A stretch of 64,000 nucleotides of DNA, from contig NZ_JAFBBO010000001.1 of NCBI RefSeq assembly GCF_016907235.1, positions 1,240,001-1,304,000 on the forward strand, given 5' to 3'. A program made the translations under genes and the position numbers. The notes under the pieces were generated by a model. That model was not told the origin of the DNA. It was given only the letters and a program-made list of their open reading frames with translations, and ran no database searches. This DNA comes from Oerskovia jenensis. Lineage in GTDB: Bacteria; Actinomycetota; Actinomycetes; Actinomycetales; Cellulomonadaceae. Positions 39,912-63,058 of the stretch are shown here, piece by piece (positions within the stretch are counted from its first letter, which is position 1; every line of letters begins with the position of its first letter).

Positions 39912-40316
39912 GAGGGGCTCCTGTGGGTCAGCGGGTCGCGGAATTCCGGTCACCAGGCGCCCAGGCGGACGACGCACCAACAGGTCGTTCGGACGCTCCC
40001 CGGTGGTCGTTCCCACCCTCGCCAGTCGCGGCCGCCTCCGATCCTACCGCGCCCTGTTCGCAGCGGGTCTCGCCGGGATCCGCCCCCTGCCCGACGGCGT
40101 CACGCACCCGGGGCGACCCGCTCGCCCAGGGCGCGTGGCGCCGTCGGGCCGCGTGCGGGTCGTGCGAGCAACGGGGGTCGAGCGCTCCCTGGCCTCGCCC
40201 ACGCTGCGCCGCTGCCTGCGAGATGCGGCCATCTGGGGTCGAGGAATACGCAGGACCCCGGACAGCCGCATCTCGAGGGTGCGTCCTGCGACTCGGTACG
40301 CGGCGACGGACCGGTG
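39912..40316. other. Intergenic region between purH and the SRPBCC gene with two large inverted repeats
   Basis: This 405-bp stretch has no convincing gene. It holds a 17-bp inverted repeat with one mismatch (40089-40105 and 40133-40149) and a nested structure (40219-40275). The purH promoter must lie here but was not recognised. Confidence 0.5.
40219..40275 (-). terminator. Nested two-stem structure after the SRPBCC gene
   Basis: Outer arms 40219-40229 and 40265-40275 (11 bp, perfect) enclose inner arms 40235-40240 and 40254-40259 (6 bp, perfect). It begins 41 nt after the SRPBCC stop and may be its terminator or a structured RNA. Confidence 0.45.
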
Positions 40317-52997: not shown

Positions 52998-53003
52998 GGT
53001 GAC

Positions 53004-53009
53004 ATCCTA
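53004..53009 (-). promoter_or_regulatory. -10 box of the four-helix membrane protein gene
   Basis: TAGGAT on the minus strand lies 6 nt before ATG 52997, consistent with a leaderless transcript. Confidence 0.5.
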
Positions 53010-53148
53010 GTTTGCTGACGCTGCTGTCGGAAAAAGATCGGCGTGGCGCTGCTCACCCACCCCTCTCCCTCCCCCCTCGAGGAGCGCCGAAGTCTGAGAC
53101 ACCCATCCACCATGCGGACAGGGGGTGTTCATTCACCCGCTGTCTCTG

Positions 53149-53154
53149 TAGCGT
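53149..53154 (+). promoter_or_regulatory. -10 box of the sulfur-assimilation operon
   Basis: TAGCGT lies 7 nt before ATG 53162, so the operon transcript probably begins at the start codon of the Cys leader peptide. Confidence 0.6.
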
Positions 53155-53161
53155 TCCCGCC

Positions 53162-53248
53162 ATGACCACGGCAGCGCACCTCCTCCTCGTGACGGCACGT
53201 CACGAGTCGACGGCCTGCGCCCGCAACAGCTTCTGCTGTTGTTGTTGA
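53162..53248 (+). CDS. Leaderless polycysteine leader peptide of the sulfur operon
   Basis: A 28-residue peptide (MTTAAHLLLVTARHESTACA start) ending in SFCCCC and a stop codon, 143 nt before sirA. Its ATG lies 7 nt after a TAGCGT -10 box and has no ribosome-binding site. Leaderless short ORFs with clustered Cys codons are established in mycobacteria as cysteine-responsive attenuators of sulfur genes: ribosomes stall on the Cys codons when charged tRNA-Cys is scarce, which relieves inhibition of the downstream gene. The arrangement here fits that model precisely. Codons for LLLV (53183-53191) are complementary to the sirA ribosome-binding site. The peptide itself is unlikely to have another function. 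Confidence 0.85.
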   Translation: MTTAAHLLLVTARHESTACARNSFCCCC

Positions 53249-53391
53249 CCCGCGCCTGACTCAGCCCGAGCCGTCCTCGCCGACCGCTCGCCATCTTCCT
53301 GAGCCAAGGGCGCGCGTGGTCGGCCCTCAGCCCCCTCGTTCCCTGCTGAGTCCTTCGGTCCGCGTGCCCACGTCCCCCCACGAGGAGCACG
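53249..53391 (+). promoter_or_regulatory. Attenuator region between the Cys leader and sirA
   Basis: Alternating complementary 5-mers CTCAG (53260-53264), CTGAG (53299-53303), CTCAG (53326-53330) and CTGAG (53346-53350) allow mutually exclusive pairings. TCCTCG (53274-53279) can pair with CGAGGA of the sirA ribosome-binding site (53381-53386). These are short matches, but their order resembles an attenuator. Confidence 0.45.
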
Positions 53392-55191
53392 ATGACGCCG
53401 CCGAACACCGCCACTGACGCGACCCCGGTCGCCGGTCAGCCGGCAGGCAGCAGCACCACCGCACCCACTGGTGCCCCCACCACGCCGCCCGACGCCGCCG
53501 CCCGCCCCGAGCGTCCGGCCCGCCCCGCGCGCGTGGCCCGGCCCAACGGCCAGTGGGCCGTCGACGGCAAGGAGCCGCTCAACGGCAACGAGAAGTGGAA
53601 GCAGGAGGACGGTGGGCTCTCGGTGCGTCAGCGCATCGAGGACGTCTACTCCCGCGAGGGCTTCGACTCGATCACGGGCGACGACCTGCACGGTCGCTTC
53701 CGCTGGTGGGGCCTGTACACGCAGCGCAAGCCCGGGATCGACGGCGGGCGCACCGCGGCGCTCGAGCCGCACGAGCTCGAGGACAAGTACTTCATGCTCC
53801 GCGTGCGCATCGACGGCGGCGCGGTCACGACCGAGCAGCTGCGCGTCATCGCGGACATCTCGCGCGACTTCGGCCGCGACAGCGCCGACATCACGGACCG
53901 CCAGAACATCCAGCTCCACTGGGTCGAGGTCGAGGACGTGCCCGAGATCTGGCGCCGGCTCGAGTCGGTCGGCCTGCAGACCACGGAGGCGTGCGGCGAC
54001 GTCCCGCGCGTCGTCCTGGGCAGCCCGGTCGCCGGGATCGCCGCGGACGAGCTGATCGACCCCGCGCGGGTCATCAAGGAGATCACCGACAAGTACATCG
54101 GCGTCCCCGAGCTCGCGAACCTGCCCCGCAAGTTCAAGACCGCCGTGACGGGCCACCCGTCCCAGGACGTGGTCCACGAGATCAACGACGTGGGCTTCGT
54201 CGCGCTCGAGCACCCCGAGCTCGGAGTCGGCTTCGACCTGTGGGTCGGCGGGGGCCTGTCCGCCAACCCCCGGCTCGGCGAGCGCCTCGGCGCGTTCGTC
54301 ACCGAGGAGCAGGTGGCCGACGTGTGGCACGGGGTCGTCCAGATCTTCCGCGACTACGGCTACCGCCGGCTGCGCAACAAGGCCCGCCTGAAGTTCCTGC
54401 TCGCCGACTGGGGACCCGCGAAGTTCCGCGAGGTCCTCGAGACCGAGTACCTCGGCTTCGCGCTCCCCGACGGCCCGCCCGCCCCGCAGCCGAACCAGCC
54501 GGGCGACCACATCGGCGTGCACAAGCAGAAGGACGGCCTCAACTACGTCGGCGCCGCCCCCTACGTCGGACGTGTCTCGGGCAGCATCCTCGCGGCCGTC
54601 GCCGACCTCGCGGAGTCCGCCGGGTCGCACCGCGTGCGCTTCACCCCGCACCAGAAGCTGCTCGTGCTCGACGTCCCCGACGAGCACCTCGAACGCGTCG
54701 TGTCGGGACTCAAGGAGCACGGGCTCGACGCGAACCCGAGCCCGTTCCGCCGCAGCACCATCGCCTGCACGGGCATCGAGTACTGCAAGCTCGCGATCGT
54801 CGAGACCAAGGCAGCGGCGAGCCGTGCGATCGACGACCTCGAGAAGCGTCTCGGCGACCTCTCCGCGATGAAGCCGCTCTCGCTGCACATCAACGGCTGC
54901 CCCAACTCGTGCGCCCGCATCCAGACCGCGGACATCGGCCTCAAGGGTCAGCTCGTGATGGACGACGACGGCAACCAGGTCCCCGGCTTCCAGGTCCACC
55001 TGGGCGGCGGCCTGACCTCGGACGACCGCGCGGAGGCCGGACTCGGCCGCACCGTGCGCGGCCTCAAGGTCACCAACGACGACCTGCCCGAGTACGTCGA
55101 GCGCGTCGTGCGCCAGTTCGAGAAGGAGAAGGAGGGCGAGGAGAGCTTCGCCCAGTGGGCGCACCGCGCGGACGAGGAGTCGCTGCGATGA
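53392..55191 (+). CDS. sirA: Ferredoxin-dependent sulfite reductase
   Basis: Six-electron reduction of sulfite to sulfide using reduced ferredoxin. The 599-residue protein has a Pro/Thr/Ala-rich N-terminal tail, two ferredoxin-like half domains and the duplicated siroheme/4Fe-4S core. The cluster ligands are CTGIEYC (Cys459, Cys465) and NGCPNSC (Cys503, Cys507). Similarity is to the actinobacterial NirA/SirA group, which acts on sulfite although nitrite reductases look alike; its operon with cysHDN settles this in favour of sulfite. ATG 53392 follows CGAGGAG. Its stop overlaps the cysH start (ATGA). Confidence 0.94.
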   Translation: MTPPNTATDATPVAGQPAGSSTTAPTGAPTTPPDAAARPERPARPARVARPNGQWAVDGKEPLNGNEKWKQEDGGLSVRQRIEDVYSREGFDSITGDDLHGRFRWWGLYTQRKPGIDGGRTAALEPHELEDKYFMLRVRIDGGAVTTEQLRVIADISRDFGRDSADITDRQNIQLHWVEVEDVPEIWRRLESVGLQTTEACGDVPRVVLGSPVAGIAADELIDPARVIKEITDKYIGVPELANLPRKFKTAVTGHPSQDVVHEINDVGFVALEHPELGVGFDLWVGGGLSANPRLGERLGAFVTEEQVADVWHGVVQIFRDYGYRRLRNKARLKFLLADWGPAKFREVLETEYLGFALPDGPPAPQPNQPGDHIGVHKQKDGLNYVGAAPYVGRVSGSILAAVADLAESAGSHRVRFTPHQKLLVLDVPDEHLERVVSGLKEHGLDANPSPFRRSTIACTGIEYCKLAIVETKAAASRAIDDLEKRLGDLSAMKPLSLHINGCPNSCARIQTADIGLKGQLVMDDDGNQVPGFQVHLGGGLTSDDRAEAGLGRTVRGLKVTNDDLPEYVERVVRQFEKEKEGEESFAQWAHRADEESLR

Positions 55192-56093
55192 GCGGGACGA
55201 CCACGAACCCGGGCGGGTCCGCGCACCCTGCCGGAGCGGCGCCGTCGGGCACCGGGGGCACAGCGACCGGCAGCGACCCGCTGGCCGCCCTGCGCGCGGC
55301 CGCCAGGGCCCGCACCGAGGCGCGCGCCGCGTCCAAGGCCGCGCACGCGGCCCGGCGCGCCGAGAACGCCCGCCCCCAGCGGTCGGCCGACGAGCTGCGC
55401 GCGATCGTCGAGCGCGGCCAGGCCGAGCTGCACGGCTCGGGCCTGGGGGCGGCAGACGAGGCGACCGCCGAGCAGGTCGTCGCGTGGGCCGTGCGCGAGT
55501 TCGGCGACTCGATCGCCGTCGCGTGCTCGATGGCCGACGCGGTCCTGCCGCACGTCGTCGCGCGCCAGGCCCCCTGGGTCGACGTCCTGTTCCTCGAGAC
55601 CGGCTACCACTTCCCCGAGACCTCGGGCACGCGCGACGCCGTCGAGCAGCAGATGGAGGTCACGATCGTCGACGTCCTGCCGCAGCTCACCGTGGCCCAG
55701 CAGGACGCGGCGCACGGCAAGGACCTGTGGTCGCGCGACCCCGCCGCGTGCTGCGCGATGCGCAAGGTCGAGCCCCTGACCCGCACGCTCGGCGGGTACG
55801 AGGTCTGGGTCACGGGCGTGCGCCGGGACGAGGCCCCGACCCGCACCCACACCCCGCTCGTGACCTGGGACGAGAAGAACGGGCTGGTCAAGATCAACCC
55901 GCTCGCCGCCTGGTCCTTCGACGACCTGCTCGGCTACGCCGCCGACCACCAGGTCGTCCTCAACCCCCTCCTCAACGACGGGTACCCCTCGATCGGCTGC
56001 GCGCCCTGCACGCGCCGCGTCGCCCCCGGCGAGGACCCGCGCGCAGGGCGCTGGGCCGGGCTCGACAAGACCGAGTGCGGGCTCCACGTATGA
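55188..56093 (+). CDS. cysH: APS reductase (assimilatory, 4Fe-4S)
   Basis: Reduces adenosine 5'-phosphosulfate to sulfite and AMP with thioredoxin. The 301-residue protein has a poorly conserved N-terminal tail of about 65 residues, the PP-loop ATPase-like fold (AVACSMADAVLPHVV), the paired cluster ligands Cys188-Cys189 and Cys271/Cys274 (CAPC), and the catalytic Cys297 in ECGLHV at the C-terminus. The CC/CxxC motif marks an APS rather than PAPS reductase, which agrees with the absence of cysC here. It overlaps both neighbours by 4 nt. Confidence 0.95.
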   Translation: MSGTTTNPGGSAHPAGAAPSGTGGTATGSDPLAALRAAARARTEARAASKAAHAARRAENARPQRSADELRAIVERGQAELHGSGLGAADEATAEQVVAWAVREFGDSIAVACSMADAVLPHVVARQAPWVDVLFLETGYHFPETSGTRDAVEQQMEVTIVDVLPQLTVAQQDAAHGKDLWSRDPAACCAMRKVEPLTRTLGGYEVWVTGVRRDEAPTRTHTPLVTWDEKNGLVKINPLAAWSFDDLLGYAADHQVVLNPLLNDGYPSIGCAPCTRRVAPGEDPRAGRWAGLDKTECGLHV

Positions 56094-57139
56094 GCGCCGT
56101 GACCGGGCACCACCAGACGGTGCCCACCGACGTGCCGACCGACCACCCCACGCACCCCGACGAGAAGAGCGACGCCTTGACCGCCCCCCTCGCCCCACCG
56201 GCCTCCCCCACGGAGACCACCGAGTCCGCACCCACCTACCGCCTGACCCAGCTCGAGTCCCTCGAGTCGGAGGCCATCCACATCATCCGCGAGGTCGTCG
56301 CGGAGTTCGAGCGCCCCGTCCTGCTGTTCAGCGGCGGCAAGGACTCGGTCGTCATGCTGCACCTGGCGACCAAGGCGTTCTGGCCGGCCCCCGTGCCGTT
56401 CCCGCTGCTGCACGTCGACACGGGCCACAACTTCCCCGAGGTCCTCGCGTACCGCGACGCCACGGTCGAGCGCCTCGGCGCCCGCCTCGAGGTCGCGAGC
56501 GTCCAGGACTACCTCGACGACGGCCGCCTGCTCGAACGTGCCGACGGCACACGCAACCCGCTCCAGACCCAGCCCCTGCTCGACGCCATCACGGGGCACA
56601 AGTTCGACGCCGTGTTCGGCGGCGGCCGCCGCGACGAGGAGAAGGCCCGCGCCAAGGAGCGCGTCATCTCGCTGCGCGACGAGTTCGGCCAGTGGGACCC
56701 GCGCAACCAGCGCCCCGAGCTGTGGAACCTGTACAACGGCCGCCACCGCCCGGGCGAGCACGTCCGCGCGTTCCCCCTGAGCAACTGGACCGAGCTCGAC
56801 ATCTGGCGCTACATCGCGGCCGAGAAGATCGACCTGCCCAGCCTCTACTACGCGCACGAGCGCGAGGTCTTCGAGCGCGACGGCATGCTCCTCGCCGTCG
56901 GACCGTACTCCCAGCCCCGCAACGACGCCGAGCGCGCGGACGTGCGCACCGAGACCGTGCGCTACCGGACCGTGGGCGACATGTCGTGCACGGGCGCCGT
57001 GGAATCTGACTCCTACACGGTCGACGACGTCATCACCGAGGTCGCTGCGACCCGCATCACCGAGCGCGGCGCGACGCGCGCCGACGACCGGATCTCCGAA
57101 GCCGCCATGGAAGACCGCAAGAAGGAGGGGTACTTCTGA
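56090..57139 (+). CDS. cysD: Sulfate adenylyltransferase subunit 2
   Basis: Catalytic subunit of ATP sulfurylase, forming APS from sulfate and ATP together with CysN. The 349-residue protein has a variable N-terminus of about 45 residues (longer than in E. coli), the PP-loop LLFSGGKDSVVMLHLA and conserved LLHVDTGHNFPEVL, FGGGRRDEEKARAKERV and RYRTVGDMSCTGAV. It overlaps cysH (ATGA) and is joined to cysN by a 1-nt overlap. Confidence 0.96.
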   Translation: MSAVTGHHQTVPTDVPTDHPTHPDEKSDALTAPLAPPASPTETTESAPTYRLTQLESLESEAIHIIREVVAEFERPVLLFSGGKDSVVMLHLATKAFWPAPVPFPLLHVDTGHNFPEVLAYRDATVERLGARLEVASVQDYLDDGRLLERADGTRNPLQTQPLLDAITGHKFDAVFGGGRRDEEKARAKERVISLRDEFGQWDPRNQRPELWNLYNGRHRPGEHVRAFPLSNWTELDIWRYIAAEKIDLPSLYYAHEREVFERDGMLLAVGPYSQPRNDAERADVRTETVRYRTVGDMSCTGAVESDSYTVDDVITEVAATRITERGATRADDRISEAAMEDRKKEGYF

Positions 57140-58539
57140 TGAGCGCCGCCACCACGCACCCGCTGCCCGCCGAGGGCGCCGTGCCCACCGAGACCACGGA
57201 CGAGTCGCCCGTGCTCCCCACGAGCACGCTGCTGCGCCTCGCGACCGCCGGATCCGTCGACGACGGGAAGTCGACGCTCGTCGGCCGCCTGCTGTTCGAC
57301 TCCAAGTCCGTCCTCGCGGACCAGCTCGACGCCGTCGAGCGCGTCTCGCGCGACCGTGGCCTCGCGACGGCCGACCTCGCACTGCTGACCGACGGCCTGC
57401 GCGCCGAGCGCGAGCAGGGCATCACGATCGACGTCGCCTACCGCTACTTCGCGACCGCCAGGCGCTCGTTCATCCTGGCCGACTGCCCCGGGCACGTGCA
57501 GTACACGCGCAACACCGTCACGGGCGCGTCGACGGCCGACGTCGTCGTGCTGCTCATCGACGCCCGCAAGGGCCTCCTGGAGCAGACGCGCCGCCACCTC
57601 GCCGTCGCGAGCCTCCTGCGGGTCCCGCACGTGATCGTGGCCGTCAACAAGATCGACCTCGTCGACTACAGCCAGGAACGCTACGAGGAGCTCGCGGGTC
57701 AGATCCGCGAGGCCGCGGCCTCGCTCGGCGTCGCGCACATCCTCACGCTGCCCGTCTCGGCGCTCGAGGGCGTCAACGTCGTCGACCGCTCGGGCGGGCC
57801 CGACGGCAAGACACCCTGGTACGACGGGCCGAGCCTGCTCGACCTGCTCGAGGAGCTCCCCGCGGCCGAGACGCCCGACACCGAGGCCTTCCGCTTCCCC
57901 GTCCAGGTCGTCCTGCGCCCCCAGGGCGCGGCGCTCGAGGAGCGGTTCCGCGACTACCGCGGGTACGCGGGCCAGATCGCCTCGGGCGTGGTCCGCGTGG
58001 GCGACGAGGTCGTGGTCCTGCCCAGCGGGAGGAAGAGCACGGTCGAGGGCATCGACACGGCCGACGGCACCCTCGCCGAGGCCTTCGCCCCGCAGTCGGT
58101 CACGATCCGCCTCGCGGACGAGATCGACATCGCCCGCGGCGACCTCATCGCGGCCGCGGCCGACGCCCCCGACGTCACGCAGGATGTCGAGGGCACCGTC
58201 GCCTGGCTCAGCGACAAGCCCCTGCGCCCCGGGACGCGCGTGCTGCTCAAGCACACGACCCGCACCGTGCAGGCCGTGGTGCGCGACGTCGTCGGGCGCC
58301 TGGACCTCGACACCGCCGAGCTCGAGCCCGCGGAAGCGCTCGAGCTCAACGACATCGGGCGCGTCACGCTGCGCCTCGCCTCACCCGTCGCGGCCGAGGA
58401 GTACGTCACCTCGCGCCGCACCGGTGCCTTCCTCCTGATCGACGGTCAGGACGGCGGCACCCTCGCAGCAGGAATGGTCGGAGACGCCCTGGCGGCCGTG
58501 CGATGTCCTTCGCAGCGCCCCGTGCAGTACGCGATCTGA
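57139..58539 (+). CDS. cysN: Sulfate adenylyltransferase subunit 1 (GTPase)
   Basis: GTP-hydrolysing subunit that drives APS formation by CysD. The 466-residue protein resembles EF-Tu: G1 GSVDDGKST (38-46), G2 region EREQGITIDVAYRYF, G3 DCPGH, G4 NKID, G5 SALEG, then two beta-barrel domains. There is no fused CysC (APS kinase) domain, which fits the direct APS-reductase route. The last six codons lie within the left arm of an inverted repeat (58523-58600). Confidence 0.96.
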   Translation: MSAATTHPLPAEGAVPTETTDESPVLPTSTLLRLATAGSVDDGKSTLVGRLLFDSKSVLADQLDAVERVSRDRGLATADLALLTDGLRAEREQGITIDVAYRYFATARRSFILADCPGHVQYTRNTVTGASTADVVVLLIDARKGLLEQTRRHLAVASLLRVPHVIVAVNKIDLVDYSQERYEELAGQIREAAASLGVAHILTLPVSALEGVNVVDRSGGPDGKTPWYDGPSLLDLLEELPAAETPDTEAFRFPVQVVLRPQGAALEERFRDYRGYAGQIASGVVRVGDEVVVLPSGRKSTVEGIDTADGTLAEAFAPQSVTIRLADEIDIARGDLIAAAADAPDVTQDVEGTVAWLSDKPLRPGTRVLLKHTTRTVQAVVRDVVGRLDLDTAELEPAEALELNDIGRVTLRLASPVAAEEYVTSRRTGAFLLIDGQDGGTLAAGMVGDALAAVRCPSQRPVQYAI

Positions 58540-58669: not shown

Positions 58670-59800
58670 ATGAACCCGTCGTCCCGCCCGACCCGCACGT
58701 CCCGAGCCGGCACGCCGCGACACCGCTCCACCACGGCTCGCTCGGTCGTCGCCGCGCTCGCCGTCGCTCCCCTGCTCCTGCTCGCCGCGTGCTCCACGGA
58801 CACCTCCGACGCCGCAGACGCACCCGCGGCGTCCTCCGGGGCCGCCGACGAGCTGCGCCTCGGCTACTTCGCGAACGTCACCCACGCCCCCGCGCTCGTC
58901 GGGGTCGCGGGCGGCCAGTTCGAGGAGGCGCTGGGCGACACCAAGCTGACGACCCAGGTCTTCAACGCCGGGCCCGCCGCGATCGAGGCCCTCAACGCCG
59001 GGGCCATCGACGCCACGTTCATCGGCCCCAACCCCGCGATCAACAACTTCGTGAAGTCGAACGGCGAGGCCGTGCGCATCATCGCGGGCTCGACGTCGGG
59101 CGGGGCCCAGCTCGTCGTGCGCGACGGTATCGACACGGCCGCCGACCTCAAGGGCACCAAGATCGCCTCGCCCCAGCTCGGCGGCACGCAGGACGTCGCG
59201 CTGCGCGCCTGGCTCACCGAGAACGGCCTGAAGAACGACATCCAGGGCGGCGGGGACGTCGCGGTCACCCCGACCGAGAACGCCCAGACCCTCACGCTGT
59301 TCCAGAACGGCGAGCTCGACGGGGGCTGGCTGCCCGAGCCCTGGGCCTCGCGCCTGGTGCTCGACGCTGGCGCCCACGTCCTGGTCGACGAGAAGGACCT
59401 GTGGGAGGACGGCCAGTTCCTCACGACGCACCTCATCGTCCGCACCGACTTCCTCGAGGAGCACCCGGAGACGGTCGAGGCGCTCCTGCGCGGCGAGGTC
59501 GCGGCGATCGACTGGCTCGACGCCAACCCGGACGAGGCCAAGACGCTCGTCAACGGCGAGATCGAGAAGATCGCCGGCAAGCCCCTGTCGGACGAGGTCC
59601 TGGACCGCGCCTTCACCAACATCACCTTCACGACGGACCCGCTCGCGGGCACGCTCAACACCTTGCTCGAGGACGGCGTGACCGCCGGGACCACCACCGA
59701 GGCGGACCTGAACGGCATCTACGACCTGAGCCTGCTCAACAAGGTGCTGACGGAGGCCGGTCAGCCGACCGTCTCCGCCGCAGGTCTCGGCAAGGAGTAG
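58670..59800 (+). CDS. ssuA: SsuA/TauA/NrtA-type substrate-binding lipoprotein
   Basis: Extracytoplasmic binding protein of 376 residues for an ABC importer of sulfur compounds. An extended, Arg-rich signal peptide ends in the lipobox LLLAAC (Cys41). The mature protein has LRLGYFANVTHAPALVGV, FNAGPAAIEALNAGAIDATFIGPNPAI and DGGWLPEPWASRL typical of the sulfonate/taurine/nitrate-binding family. AAGGAA precedes ATG 58670. Lying downstream of cysHDN it may import sulfate or alkanesulfonates; without a monooxygenase such as ssuD nearby, sulfonate use is not demonstrated. Confidence 0.88.
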   Translation: MNPSSRPTRTSRAGTPRHRSTTARSVVAALAVAPLLLLAACSTDTSDAADAPAASSGAADELRLGYFANVTHAPALVGVAGGQFEEALGDTKLTTQVFNAGPAAIEALNAGAIDATFIGPNPAINNFVKSNGEAVRIIAGSTSGGAQLVVRDGIDTAADLKGTKIASPQLGGTQDVALRAWLTENGLKNDIQGGGDVAVTPTENAQTLTLFQNGELDGGWLPEPWASRLVLDAGAHVLVDEKDLWEDGQFLTTHLIVRTDFLEEHPETVEALLRGEVAAIDWLDANPDEAKTLVNGEIEKIAGKPLSDEVLDRAFTNITFTTDPLAGTLNTLLEDGVTAGTTTEADLNGIYDLSLLNKVLTEAGQPTVSAAGLGKE

Positions 59801-59804
59801 CACG

Positions 59805-60629
59805 ATGACCACCACGTCCCCCGCCCGTACGGGCACCCCGATCGGCGCAGACGCAACGGCCCCGAGCGACGGGGCCGGTCCCACGACCGGCGTCCGCCTG
59901 CGCGGCGTGTCCAAGCGGTTCTCCCCGACGGGCGCCCCGGTGCTCGACGGCATCGACCTGGACATCGCGCAGGGCGAGTTCGTCTGCCTGCTCGGAGCCT
60001 CGGGCTGCGGCAAGTCGACGCTGCTCAACATCGTCGCGGGTCTCGAGCGCCCGACCACGGGGGACGTGGAGGTCGCCGGGGGCGGTGCGGCCCTGATGTT
60101 CCAGGAGTCCGCACTGTTCCCCTGGCTCACCGCGAGCCGCAACATCGAGCTCGCCCTGAAGTTCCGTGGCGTGCCCCGCACCGAGCGTCGCGAGCGGGCC
60201 GCCGAGCTTCTCGCGCTCGTGCGCCTCGACGGCTCGGGCGACAAGCGCGTCCACGAGCTCTCGGGCGGCATGCGCCAGCGCGTCGCGCTCGCCCGCTCGC
60301 TCGCCCAGGAGCGGGACGTCCTGCTCATGGACGAGCCGTTCGCGGCGCTCGACGCGATCACGCGCGACCTGCTGCACGACGAGCTCGAGCGTGTCTGGGA
60401 GCAGACGGGCCGCACCATCGTCTTCATCACGCACAACGTCCGCGAGGCCGTGCGGCTCGGGCAGCGCGTGCTGCTCATGTCGTCGCGTCCTGGGCGCATC
60501 GTGCGCGAGTGGGACGTCGACGTGTACGGCGAGAACGAGCACCGCAGCATCGAGGCGGCCGCCGCGTCGCGCCTCGCGACCGAGATCACCAACGACCTCC
60601 GTGAGGAGATCCGCCGCCATGCCGTCTGA
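59805..60629 (+). CDS. ssuB: SsuB-type ABC transporter ATPase
   Basis: Energy subunit of 274 residues for the SsuA-like importer. It has Walker A LLGASGCGKSTLLN, Q-loop MFQESALFPWL, signature ELSGGMRQRVALARSLA, Walker B VLLMDEPFAALD and switch His in FITHNVREAV, all intact and typical of the SsuB/TauB/NrtD family. A hydrophilic N-terminal extension of about 28 residues is present. It starts 4 nt after ssuA and overlaps ssuC by 11 nt. Confidence 0.93.
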   Translation: MTTTSPARTGTPIGADATAPSDGAGPTTGVRLRGVSKRFSPTGAPVLDGIDLDIAQGEFVCLLGASGCGKSTLLNIVAGLERPTTGDVEVAGGGAALMFQESALFPWLTASRNIELALKFRGVPRTERRERAAELLALVRLDGSGDKRVHELSGGMRQRVALARSLAQERDVLLMDEPFAALDAITRDLLHDELERVWEQTGRTIVFITHNVREAVRLGQRVLLMSSRPGRIVREWDVDVYGENEHRSIEAAAASRLATEITNDLREEIRRHAV

Positions 60630-61695
60630 GACGTCGAAGACCGCCGAGACCCTGCCGCCGCGCGACGAGACCCGGGCGGGCACGGACGCGCCCGGTACGT
60701 CCGGCCCCTCGCCCGAGGCGCGCGACGCCGTCGCGACCGCTTCGCCCGAGGTGGGCTCCGTCGTCGGGCACGCGAAGGACGTGGGCGACATCGAGGCCGG
60801 CCTCGACGCCCTCCAGACGGCCGTCGCACCGACCGCGAGCCGGTGGTCCAGGGCCGTCCAGGCCGTCTACCCGCCGGTCCTCGCGATCGCGATCCTGCTC
60901 GCCGTCTGGCAGACCCTCGTGTGGCTCGAGGTCCAGCCCATCTACAACCTGCCCGGCCCCGAGCAGGTCTGGGAGGCCGTCACGCGCGCCGCGGCGAGCG
61001 GCACGTTGTGGCAGGCCCTCGGGACGAGCCTCGAGCGCGGTGTGCTGGGCTTCCTCGCAGCCGTCGCGATCGGCACGCCGCTCGGCATCCTCGTGGCACG
61101 CGTGCGCTGGGTGCGCGTGTCGTTCGGGCCCATCATCACGGGTCTGCAGGTGCTGCCGTCGGTCGCCTGGGTGCCTGCGGGCATCATCTGGTTCGGGCTG
61201 TCCGACGCCACGGTGTACTTCGTGATCCTCATGGGCGCGGTGCCCTCGATCATCAACGGGATCGTGTCGGGCGTGGACCAGGTGCCGCCGCTGTACCGGC
61301 GCGTGGGTCAGGTCCTGGGCGCGGGCCGGTTCCAGATGATCAAGGACGTCATCCTGCCCGCGGCCTTCCCCGGCTACCTCGCGGGCCTCAAGCAGGGCTG
61401 GGCGTTCTCGTGGCGCTCGCTCATGGCCGCGGAGATCATCGCGGTCGGCGGCGGGATCGGGTTCGGGCTGGGCGCGTTCCTCCAGCAGGGGCGCGAGCTG
61501 TCCGACATGGCGCTCGTCTTCACCGCGATCCTGCTGATCCTCGTGGTCGGCATGGTCATCGAGCTGCTGTTCTTCGCCCCGGTCGAGAAGTCGATGTTGC
61601 GTCGTCGGGGCCTGGCCCCGGAGACCTCGACCAGCAAGGGCTCGGGGTGGCTGCTGCGCCGGCGTGAGCTGGCCGCCGCCGCTTTCGGGCGATGA
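60619..61695 (+). CDS. ssuC: SsuC-type ABC transporter permease
   Basis: Inner-membrane permease of 358 residues. About 75 hydrophilic residues precede five or six membrane segments, with the EAA-type loop VPPLYRRVGQVLGAGRFQMIKDVILPAAFPGYLAGLKQ characteristic of the SsuC/TauC family. ATG 60619 follows GTGAGGAG. The long acidic/Pro-rich N-terminal tail is unusual for the family but common in this genome's membrane proteins. It ends 7 nt before cysG. Confidence 0.92.
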   Translation: MPSETSKTAETLPPRDETRAGTDAPGTSGPSPEARDAVATASPEVGSVVGHAKDVGDIEAGLDALQTAVAPTASRWSRAVQAVYPPVLAIAILLAVWQTLVWLEVQPIYNLPGPEQVWEAVTRAAASGTLWQALGTSLERGVLGFLAAVAIGTPLGILVARVRWVRVSFGPIITGLQVLPSVAWVPAGIIWFGLSDATVYFVILMGAVPSIINGIVSGVDQVPPLYRRVGQVLGAGRFQMIKDVILPAAFPGYLAGLKQGWAFSWRSLMAAEIIAVGGGIGFGLGAFLQQGRELSDMALVFTAILLILVVGMVIELLFFAPVEKSMLRRRGLAPETSTSKGSGWLLRRRELAAAAFGR

Positions 61696-61702
61696 TGGGC
61701 GC

Positions 61703-63058
61703 ATGAACCCTGAGCTCTACCCCCTCGGTCTGCGGATCGCGGGCCGTCTCGTCGTCGTGGTGGGCGGCGGCCCGGTCGCTGCACGGCGCACCCGGTCGCT
61801 CGTCCTCGCGGGTGCGCACGTGCGTGTGGTCGCACCGGAGATCTGCGAGGACCTCGCCGCGTCGGTCACCGTTCCTCCGCCCGACGGCGCCGCGCCCCTC
61901 GACGGTCCCGGTGCGGCCGGGTCCGTCGTCACGTGGGAGGCGCGAGCGTTCCGCCCGGGCGACCTCGACGGCGCGTGGCTCGTGCACACCGCGACCGGGT
62001 CTGCCGAGGTCGACGCCGACGTCGCGGCCGAGGCCGAGTCGCTGCGCATCTTCTGCGTGAGCGCGGGCGACGCCGGGGCCGGGACCGCGTGGGTGCCCGC
62101 GGTGGCGCGGGTGACCGTCGACGACGTCTCCCCCGTTGGGGATCGCGACGGCACGACGGCCGAGCCCCCGACCGGGGGCACAGCCACCGGCGCGACCTCC
62201 GCGACCGAGGTCGTCGTCGCCGTGAACGCGGGCCGCGACCCGCGCCGCGCCCAGCACGTGCGGGACGCGATCGACGCCCTGCTCGCGACGGGCGAGCTGC
62301 CCCTGCGGCGGGTCCGGCCCGCCGCTCCGGGCGGGACCGGGACGGTTGCCCTCGTGGGCGGCGGACCCGGCGACGCGGGGCTCATCACCGCACGAGGACG
62401 GCGACTGCTCGCGCAGGCCGAGGTCGTGGTGACCGATCGCCTGGGCCCACGAGCGCTGCTCGACGAGCTCGCGGACGACGTCGTCGTGATCGACGTGGGC
62501 AAGACCCCGGGCTTCCACCCGGTCCCGCAGGAGGAGATCAACGCGCTGCTGGTCGAGCACGCGCTCGCCGGGCGTCGTGTTGTACGACTCAAGGGTGGCG
62601 ACCCGTACGTGTTCGGCCGCGGGGGCGAGGAGCTCATCGCGTGCGAGGAGCACGGCATCCCCGTCGAGGTCGTCCCCGGTGTGACGAGCGCGGTCTCGGT
62701 GCCCGCAGCCGTGGGGATCCCGGTCACGCATCGTGGCTGGTCCCGTGGCTTCACCGTCCTGACCGGGCACGAGGACATCGGCAAGGTCCCCGCTGCCGCG
62801 GACCACACCGTCATCCTGCTCATGGGGGTCTCGCGGCTGCGCGACTCCGCCGCCGCGCTCGTGGCCTCGGGCCGCTCGCCCGAGACGCCCGTCGCCGTGG
62901 TCGAGGACGGCTACGGTCCGCGACAGCGGTCGACCGTCGGGACGCTCGCGACCATCGCCGACGTCGCCGCCGCCGCGGGAGTCCGGGCGCCGGCCGTGAC
63001 CGTGATCGGCGACGTGGTGCGGGTGAGCCCGGCGTGGCGGGCGGCCGGGCTCGGCTGA
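61703..63058 (+). CDS. cysG: Siroheme synthase-like protein: CysG-N domain plus uroporphyrinogen-III C-methyltransferase
   Basis: Makes siroheme precursor for SirA. The 451-residue protein has an N-terminal Rossmann domain for precorrin-2 oxidation (LGLRIAGRLVVVVGGGPVAARRTRSL) and a C-terminal SUMT domain (about 220-450) with VALVGGGPGDAGLITARGRRLLAQAEVVV, VGKTPGFHPVPQEEINALLV, VVRLKGGDPYVFGRGGEE and VTSAVSVPAAVGIPVTHRG. The central part between them is diverged: the usual VVDD block reads FCVSAGDAGAGTAWVPAVARV, and a spacer rich in Thr/Gly follows, so chelatase function is uncertain. ATG 61703 has GATGAT 6 nt upstream. It closes the sulfur operon. Confidence 0.9.
   Translation: MNPELYPLGLRIAGRLVVVVGGGPVAARRTRSLVLAGAHVRVVAPEICEDLAASVTVPPPDGAAPLDGPGAAGSVVTWEARAFRPGDLDGAWLVHTATGSAEVDADVAAEAESLRIFCVSAGDAGAGTAWVPAVARVTVDDVSPVGDRDGTTAEPPTGGTATGATSATEVVVAVNAGRDPRRAQHVRDAIDALLATGELPLRRVRPAAPGGTGTVALVGGGPGDAGLITARGRRLLAQAEVVVTDRLGPRALLDELADDVVVIDVGKTPGFHPVPQEEINALLVEHALAGRRVVRLKGGDPYVFGRGGEELIACEEHGIPVEVVPGVTSAVSVPAAVGIPVTHRGWSRGFTVLTGHEDIGKVPAAADHTVILLMGVSRLRDSAAALVASGRSPETPVAVVEDGYGPRQRSTVGTLATIADVAAAAGVRAPAVTVIGDVVRVSPAWRAAGLG

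Follow-up and report, generated by a model that had tools for sequence, protein, structure and literature searches.

Classical amino-acid attenuators (trp, leu, ilv) combine a leader peptide rich in the regulated residue with a hairpin whose closing is set by the position of the ribosome. In Mycobacterium smegmatis, Canestrari et al. reportedly described in 2020 cysteine-responsive attenuation by leaderless polycysteine open reading frames (ORFs), with blocking of the ribosome-binding site (RBS) as the favoured mode. By the accounts given in papers citing the M. smegmatis work (PMC9031893, PMC9094748, PMC13236596), these ORFs attenuate in response to cysteine (Cys) through ribosome speed, and one of them (PMC9094748) mentions six polycysteine leader loci predicted in M. 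tuberculosis by conservation. Cys-run leader peptides had been predicted by Seliverstov in 2005—in Mycobacterium, at the cys operon of Propionibacterium acnes and at cbs of Bifidobacterium longum—and that comparison reported no conserved hairpins able to be terminators (PMC1262725). Here, we analysed a 64,000-nucleotide (nt) stretch of the Oerskovia jenensis genome (contig NZ_JAFBBO010000001.1, positions 1,240,001 to 1,304,000; hereafter the window) in which a short ORF ending in four Cys codons stands first in an eight-gene sulfur-assimilation series, ahead of the sulfite reductase-family gene sirA. This leader ORF is very probably the sensor of a cysteine-responsive, ribosome-mediated attenuator, the response to cysteine being read from comparative sequence.

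With the M. smegmatis polycysteine ORFs, as portrayed in the citing descriptions, the Oerskovia leader shares a short, leaderless-type ORF with contiguous Cys codons before cysteine or sulfur genes, as well as the presence of more than one Cys-leader locus per genome (the mycobacterial count being that for M. tuberculosis). It differs in family and operon, and, of the two Oerskovia leaders, one follows a Shine-Dalgarno (SD) sequence. The in-ORF and post-stop hairpins of the Oerskovia locus are backed by comparison; the mycobacterial system may have similar hairpins. The leaders of the 2005 comparison likewise have runs of Cys codons close to the stop of short ORFs that precede cys genes; what sets the Cellulomonadaceae leaders apart is their compensating hairpins (PMC1262725). 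The first-pass annotation had seen a mycobacterial design appearing in another actinobacterial family: the same design is found here, but its step beyond the mycobacteria was anticipated by the P. acnes and B. longum leaders already predicted in 2005. No description of Cys leaders in Cellulomonadaceae was found in the open-licence PMC literature, among the matches listed. The trp, leu and ilv attenuators are alike in their regulated-residue leader and ribosome-dependent hairpin; the sirA leader has no U-tract terminator. Streptomyces lividans leaders also resemble it in being leaderless leader peptides with TAnnnT −10 boxes; in that species 17% of transcripts are leaderless and several leaders lack a U-rich terminator, and none of the eight leaders listed there is called cysteine-dependent (PMC8079986). 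One S. lividans leader, that of metNIQ, is given as methionine-dependent in Table 4 of the same paper and contains CMCRRMC; it may sense cysteine instead.

The leader ORF and its immediate signals in the window are as follows.

53162 to 53248, plus strand: leader ORF, MTTAAHLLLVTARHESTACARNSFCCCC (28 codons plus TGA), presumed leaderless, from translation, a single-criterion ORF search and family comparison
53149 to 53154, plus strand: −10-like hexamer TAGCGT, with 7 nt between its end and the leader ATG
53234 to 53245, plus strand: the four Cys codons (TGC TGT TGT TGT) at which the ribosome is proposed to stall

The ORF length, its distance from TAGCGT and its CCCC-stop ending had been annotated exactly to the base. 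Its 3′ end reads TGC-TGT-TGT-TGT-TGA, i.e., CCCC directly before TGA, and an additional Cys codon (Cys19) lies at 53216–53218. A sigma-70 consensus scan returned no promoter at the leader, where a good −35 box is absent; from the −10 spacing, we infer that the transcript starts at or next to the ATG. When we searched both strands of the window for ORFs with an ATG or GTG start, 5–60 codons, two or more Cys in a stretch of four residues and a [TC]ANNNT hexamer ending 6–8 nt upstream, the leader was the sole ORF returned, and a looser measure of Cys density without the −10 requirement added one further ORF, on the minus strand. With zero mismatches, TGYTGYTGYTGYTGA occurs a single time in the entire 4.45-Mb single-contig genome, and a pattern search for further four-Cys leaders there yielded none without mismatch. 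No Rfam family matched the leader region at gathering score, the sole match in the window being a ZMP/ZTP riboswitch elsewhere (39952–40039, minus strand, 51.6 bits). A 654-residue antisense frame (53200–55164, minus strand) runs through sirA and ends within the leader; it is probably a shadow frame of high-GC DNA.

To place the leader in its family, we turned to the Cellulomonadaceae, where sirA was matched in 146 of 200 genomes. Besides the window, 123 of the listed places were taken (about two dozen, mostly from the crowded genera g7 and g21, were omitted without a fixed rule); 120 of these regions were fetched and one of them, L136, was dropped as too short (373 nt), so that 119 regions plus the window made up a set of 120. 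The first-pass annotation had staked its claim beforehand on conservation of the Cys codons in relatives: within 480 nt of sirA, 103 of the 120 family regions keep a Cys-tract ORF by the above definition, whereas one occurs in 25 of 2400 dinucleotide-shuffled sequences and on 3 of the 120 antisense strands. This conservation supports the annotated cysteine-responsive leaderless attenuator, of which the cysteine response, the leaderless start and the stalling are interpretations of sequence. Leaders were present in 18 of the 21 genera sampled—g5 (0/1), g10 (0/5) and g13 (0/1) had none, and g25 had two in six. Outside the family, 70 genomes of the order had a match, from which 40 regions were fetched (one to four per genus), and four of these contain an ORF of this kind, with different peptides. 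Given 103 of 120 inside the family versus 4 of 40 in the others, the leader is a trait of this family, one that selection appears to keep.

Among the 103 leaders, the −10-like hexamer ends 7 nt before the start in 68, 6 nt in 31 and 8 nt in 4, a range that is built into the definition, which shuffles satisfy in 1%. Beyond the start, the hexamer and the Cys pair that the definition demands, distant genera share little, and the tract itself takes forms such as CCCC, CCR, CLCCCR, CRCC, CCCCC, CRSCQP and CMCCCLRSI. In 21 leaders the peptide ends on the last Cys, in 44 this Cys is one codon short of the end, and in 98 it falls within four codons of it. Of the 518 Cys codons in these leaders, 290 are TGT, whereas six operon genes of the window use TGT for 1 of their 19 Cys codons, which looks like a preference of leaders for the rarer codon; in genera g21 and g22, TGC remains commoner than TGT in leaders.

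Some regions depart from this pattern. In the leaders of genus g15 (L153, L167, L170, L194), the Cys pair sits mid-peptide, 14 codons before the stop, and sirA follows at 61–62 nt. Three loci from other families of the order (L296, L267, L304) carry different Cys ORFs at leaderless distance before sirA, one of them MVQPSAVRLVSRRYVDLMRVQSAYCCRRAPAARRTS, and are perhaps independent leader types. By eye, the sirA upstream regions of Arthrobacter and its kin (L026–L081) hold no convincing Cys leader. Short Arthrobacter GTG ORFs with two Cys, which lie in a conserved stretch, were rejected as leaders because many species have no Cys codons there. In many of these regions the sequence CCTACAGTCGATGC-ATG suggests that sirA itself is leaderless; farther upstream they have a conserved block resembling TTCGTGACGAAATATTTCCCTAGGTGAC.

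Two hairpins were drawn within the leader ORF.

53186 to 53206, plus strand: hairpin A, arms 53186–53194 and 53198–53206, 9 base pairs with a 3-nt loop (GCA)
53224 to 53241, plus strand: hairpin B, CAACAGC (53224–53230) paired with GCTGTTG (53235–53241), which contains Cys codons, from minimum-energy folds of the window

RNAalifold found the core of hairpin A unprompted in an alignment of 34 sequences from four genera, window included, with 98.5% of its cells paired; hairpin B is absent from that consensus fold. The covariation score of hairpin A was 0.250, compared with 0.128 (standard deviation 0.012) in shuffles, none of 500 of which scored as high; kinship of the sequences can inflate such scores, a concern answered in part by control positions slid along the alignment, which reached at most 0.098. 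Three pairs have changed on both sides, in 15 cells versus 2.4 in shuffles, while neither the number of such pairs (3 versus 1.6; 60 of 500 shuffles as high) nor that of pair types (5 versus 5.6) stood above the shuffles. These double changes alter the peptide, turning Val to Thr or Ala and His to Arg, yet keep the pairs, so that base pairing in hairpin A seems to matter more than the peptide sequence.

A further hairpin begins 2 nt past the leader stop codon.

53251 to 53314, plus strand: post-stop hairpin 1:2, CGCGCCT (segment 1, 53251–53257) paired with GGGCGCG (segment 2, 53308–53314), with nested CTCAG/CTGAG and CGAGC/GCTCG stems

Since the MAFFT alignment of the post-stop region looked one column off between genera, single-sequence folds were used, in nine genera and with only those sequences that had at most one mismatch to the segment-2 consensus. 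The region folded better than shuffles in all nine (mean z −1.3 to −4.4; 50 distinct sequences). Its inner stems vary in sequence among genera with pairing kept: a genus's own 5′ and 3′ halves beat cross-genus halves in nine of nine cases, by 7.0 kcal/mol on average, as against 2.3 kcal/mol (range 0.5–4.7; 8 repeats) when halves of shuffled sequences were swapped. In a wider test covering the 85 nt past the stop, z averaged −1.14 across genera and was below zero in 17 of the 18, the exception being g7 (+0.35). Genera g9, g14 and g19 lack a segment 1:2 stem of at least four pairs, and few g15 sequences have one. With the RNA free to fold from the stop codon onward, the computed probability of the closing stem was 0.95 in g1, 0.79 in g8 and 0.92 in g22, the best-sampled of the nine genera. 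In the Cellulomonas-type genus g21, some pairing occurs at the post-stop site in 22 of 23 sequences; the Cellulomonas-type consensus fold (22 sequences) has one double-change pair only, and the hairpins there are without covariation support. In sum, hairpin A and the post-stop hairpin are supported as RNA elements by compensatory change. With the last Cys codon in its A site, a ribosome has a footprint reaching to about 53256 and would cover nearly all of the first strand of the post-stop hairpin.

The attenuator might then operate as follows. Transcription from or near the ATG would let ribosomes enter the leader without an SD site. With Cys-tRNA plentiful, the ribosome would pass the Cys codons and leave at the stop, the 1:2 hairpin would close and sirA would be expressed poorly; with Cys-tRNA short, it would wait on the Cys tract with its footprint over segment 1, the hairpin would stay open and the operon would be expressed. 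For the last step, the likeliest proposal—and a proposal only—is that the freed segment 2 would pair with segment 3, which otherwise might help to conceal the sirA RBS or leave C-rich RNA accessible to Rho. The elements concerned are these.

53361 to 53369, plus strand: segment 3, CGCGTGCCC, complementary to segment 2 (53308–53316), a possible anti-sequestor
53382 to 53387, plus strand: sirA SD sequence GAGGAG, from sequence

The 2:3 helix is the consensus choice of RNAalifold, with 99.6% of cells paired in the 34 sequences; its core, nearly invariant and so uninformative, has no double changes there, and its extension has two flanking pairs with double changes, in five and two sequences. As an alternative helix it was convincing by eye and then failed permutation.

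Several observations weigh against the attenuator as just described. By our definition, 17 of the 120 family regions have no leader. The closing stem of the post-stop hairpin had a lower probability, 0.01 to 0.90, in the six other genera, and dropped to 0.56, 0.25 and 0.70 in g1, g8 and g22 when the whole leader was folded. RNAalifold, given the 34 sequences, picked the rival 2:3 pairing and not 1:2, which a one-base misplacement of segment 1 between genera by MAFFT may explain. For the 2:3 pairing itself, the permutation test gave 227 observed pairs versus 228.2 expected, of 261, own duplexes were favoured over mixed ones in 8 of 13 genera, with Oerskovia on the wrong side (+6.45 kcal/mol), and its probability in the stalled state is near 0 in Oerskovia. 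Masking by a stalled ribosome left access to the sirA RBS in the window little changed (8.6 versus 9.1 kcal/mol), and over the 103 leaders the shift between masked and unmasked RNA averaged 0.41 kcal/mol, exceeding 0.5 in 34; as proof, this thermodynamic test is not decisive. Nor was an intrinsic terminator, i.e., a GC hairpin plus U run, found in 53000–53420. The sensor and the masked hairpin are therefore well supported, whereas the output step, be it SD hiding or Rho, is not supported by folding and permutation tests.

A second Cys leader was found before cysK. In the same genome, the best cysK match (G000:C1:917183) is preceded by MTTCHATSSRAVSTPAHSRSCCPCRTCR (L228:1231-1317), a leader with the SD sequence GAGGAGG, 159 nt upstream of cysK. 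All 30 family loci examined (best matches, five genera) have a Cys-rich leader at this place. Under a strict definition, which requires an SD sequence, no more than 40 codons and three or more Cys in eight residues, all 30 loci qualify, and among the controls 1 of 600 shuffles and none of the 30 antisense strands; a looser one gave 30 versus 52 of 600 and 6 of 30. Other cysK-like paralogues were tried, and none of seven had a convincing leader; near one of them, the weak relative L234, lies a short ORF with CCC. Folding the post-stop regions of ten cysK leaders gave z below −2 for one, so that no clear structure emerged, and the post-stop hairpin therefore seems not to be common to the sirA and cysK leaders. 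With Cys-leader loci at both sirA and cysK in one genome, the latter SD-led and not leaderless, cysteine control probably reaches at least two operons, whose leaders begin translation in two different ways. A broader reading would make this control family-wide, pairing a leaderless sirA leader with an SD-led cysK leader and treating the sirA mRNA as a purpose-built switch in which hairpin A overrides the peptide and the ribosome masks the post-stop hairpin; we hold it tentatively, at a little under an even chance.

Comparison of the 103 leaders also brought out a conserved element upstream of the −10-like hexamer.

53107 to 53119, plus strand: conserved element CCACCATGCGGAC, probably a transcription-factor site

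The near-palindromic CCANNATNNGGAN is present with at most one mismatch in 73 of the 103 leaders and with two or three in the remaining 30; in 72 of those 73, the element (CCAnnATnnGGAn, at most one mismatch) lies at −53 to −56 from the leader start, and mononucleotide shuffles gave 14 of 1030. Exact copies of CCACNATNYGGAC number three in the genome (reversed control, 0). A regulon defined by this element was considered and dropped, neither of the two other exact matches being at an evident sulfur promoter. The conservation suggests that a transcription factor also acts here.

Strong conservation at a fixed distance would fit a scenario in which this upstream element alone regulates and the Cys ORF is a bystander. 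A bystander would not retain its Cys tract in 103 of 120 regions versus 1% of shuffles, which makes this scenario scarcely credible, and dual control by element and leader is more likely than the element alone. The ORF could also encode a functional Cys-rich micropeptide, one that binds metal, serves in redox chemistry or carries sulfur and is co-expressed with sirA, as several Cys in some 30 residues might suggest. We consider this highly improbable: the number and spacing of Cys differ among genera, residues under hairpin A change so that base pairs stay, no NCBIfam family matched any of the eight leaders scanned, and the TGT enrichment would have no evident reason under a peptide function. 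Hairpin A, in turn, might work as DNA, being the operator of a regulator, and not as RNA: its palindrome (CTCGTGACG-GCA-CGTCACGAG) lies no more than 45 nt into the presumed transcript and has 37 and 32 near-matches (at most three mismatches) versus 18 and 22 for the reversed control. The genome contains a single exact copy, however, and in relatives U-A gives way to C-G and G-C to A-U by changes in both arms, which a sequence-specific protein would rarely tolerate; an operator is thus unlikely.

The alternative that bears on the output leaves the leader as a cysteine sensor and replaces the final step by Rho-dependent termination: once the ribosome has gone, the C-rich spacer would be open, and during stalling the RNA would be shielded by the ribosome or a downstream hairpin. 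In the window, C makes up 46% and G 27% of the spacer between leader and sirA (37% and 35% overall), and C exceeds G in 103 of 103 spacers, with means of 46.8% and 29.1%. The missing intrinsic terminator and the barely shifting SD access in the folding model agree with such an output, which the 2005 comparison weakly predicted for mycobacterial cys leaders (PMC1262725). C-richness is, however, weak evidence for Rho sites. The 2020 mycobacterial work is reported to favour RBS blocking. Rho output is accordingly a real possibility that we rate as somewhat improbable, and under either output the Cys ORF keeps its role as the sensor of the attenuator.

Downstream of the leader, the sulfur series runs as follows, the gene order being taken from domain matches.

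53392 to 55191, plus strand: sirA, nitrite/sulfite reductase family, from NIR_SIR domains; its start is 143 nt past the leader stop
55188 to 56093, plus strand: cysH, PAPS_reduct in frame, start approximate
56090 to 57139, plus strand: cysD, TIGR02039 over cut-off, start approximate
57139 to 58539, plus strand: cysN, TIGR02034 over cut-off
58670 to 59800, plus strand: ABC transporter substrate-binding protein, NMT1-like, from NMT1_2
59805 to 60629, plus strand: ABC transporter ATPase, from ABC_tran
60166 to 61695, plus strand: open frame containing an ABC permease (BPD_transp_1 at residues 303–468), the limits given being those of the frame
61664 to 63058, plus strand: cysG-type siroheme synthase, from TIGR01469 over cut-off and NAD_binding_7

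The order sirA-cysHDN-ssuABC-cysG had been proposed at the outset. Domains bear out sirA, cysH, cysD, cysN and cysG; 'ssuABC' holds at family level only, the transporter genes being of the ABC family with hits that do not settle sulfonate, taurine or another substrate.

The sirA leader is a well-supported case of a known attenuator type, with an RNA architecture clearer than in the earlier descriptions compared here. In the 2005 comparison, Cys leaders of Actinobacteria were predicted without a visible switch (PMC1262725), and the Cellulomonadaceae now show parts of an RNA switch. The family offers some hundred natural leaders, and dozens of these have two co-varying hairpins, so that the switch could be mapped by mutation. 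The presumably leaderless sirA leader and the SD-led cysK leader suggest one amino-acid sensor with two kinds of translation start in a single genome. If true, the family-wide switch would supply the element missing from the 2005 comparison.
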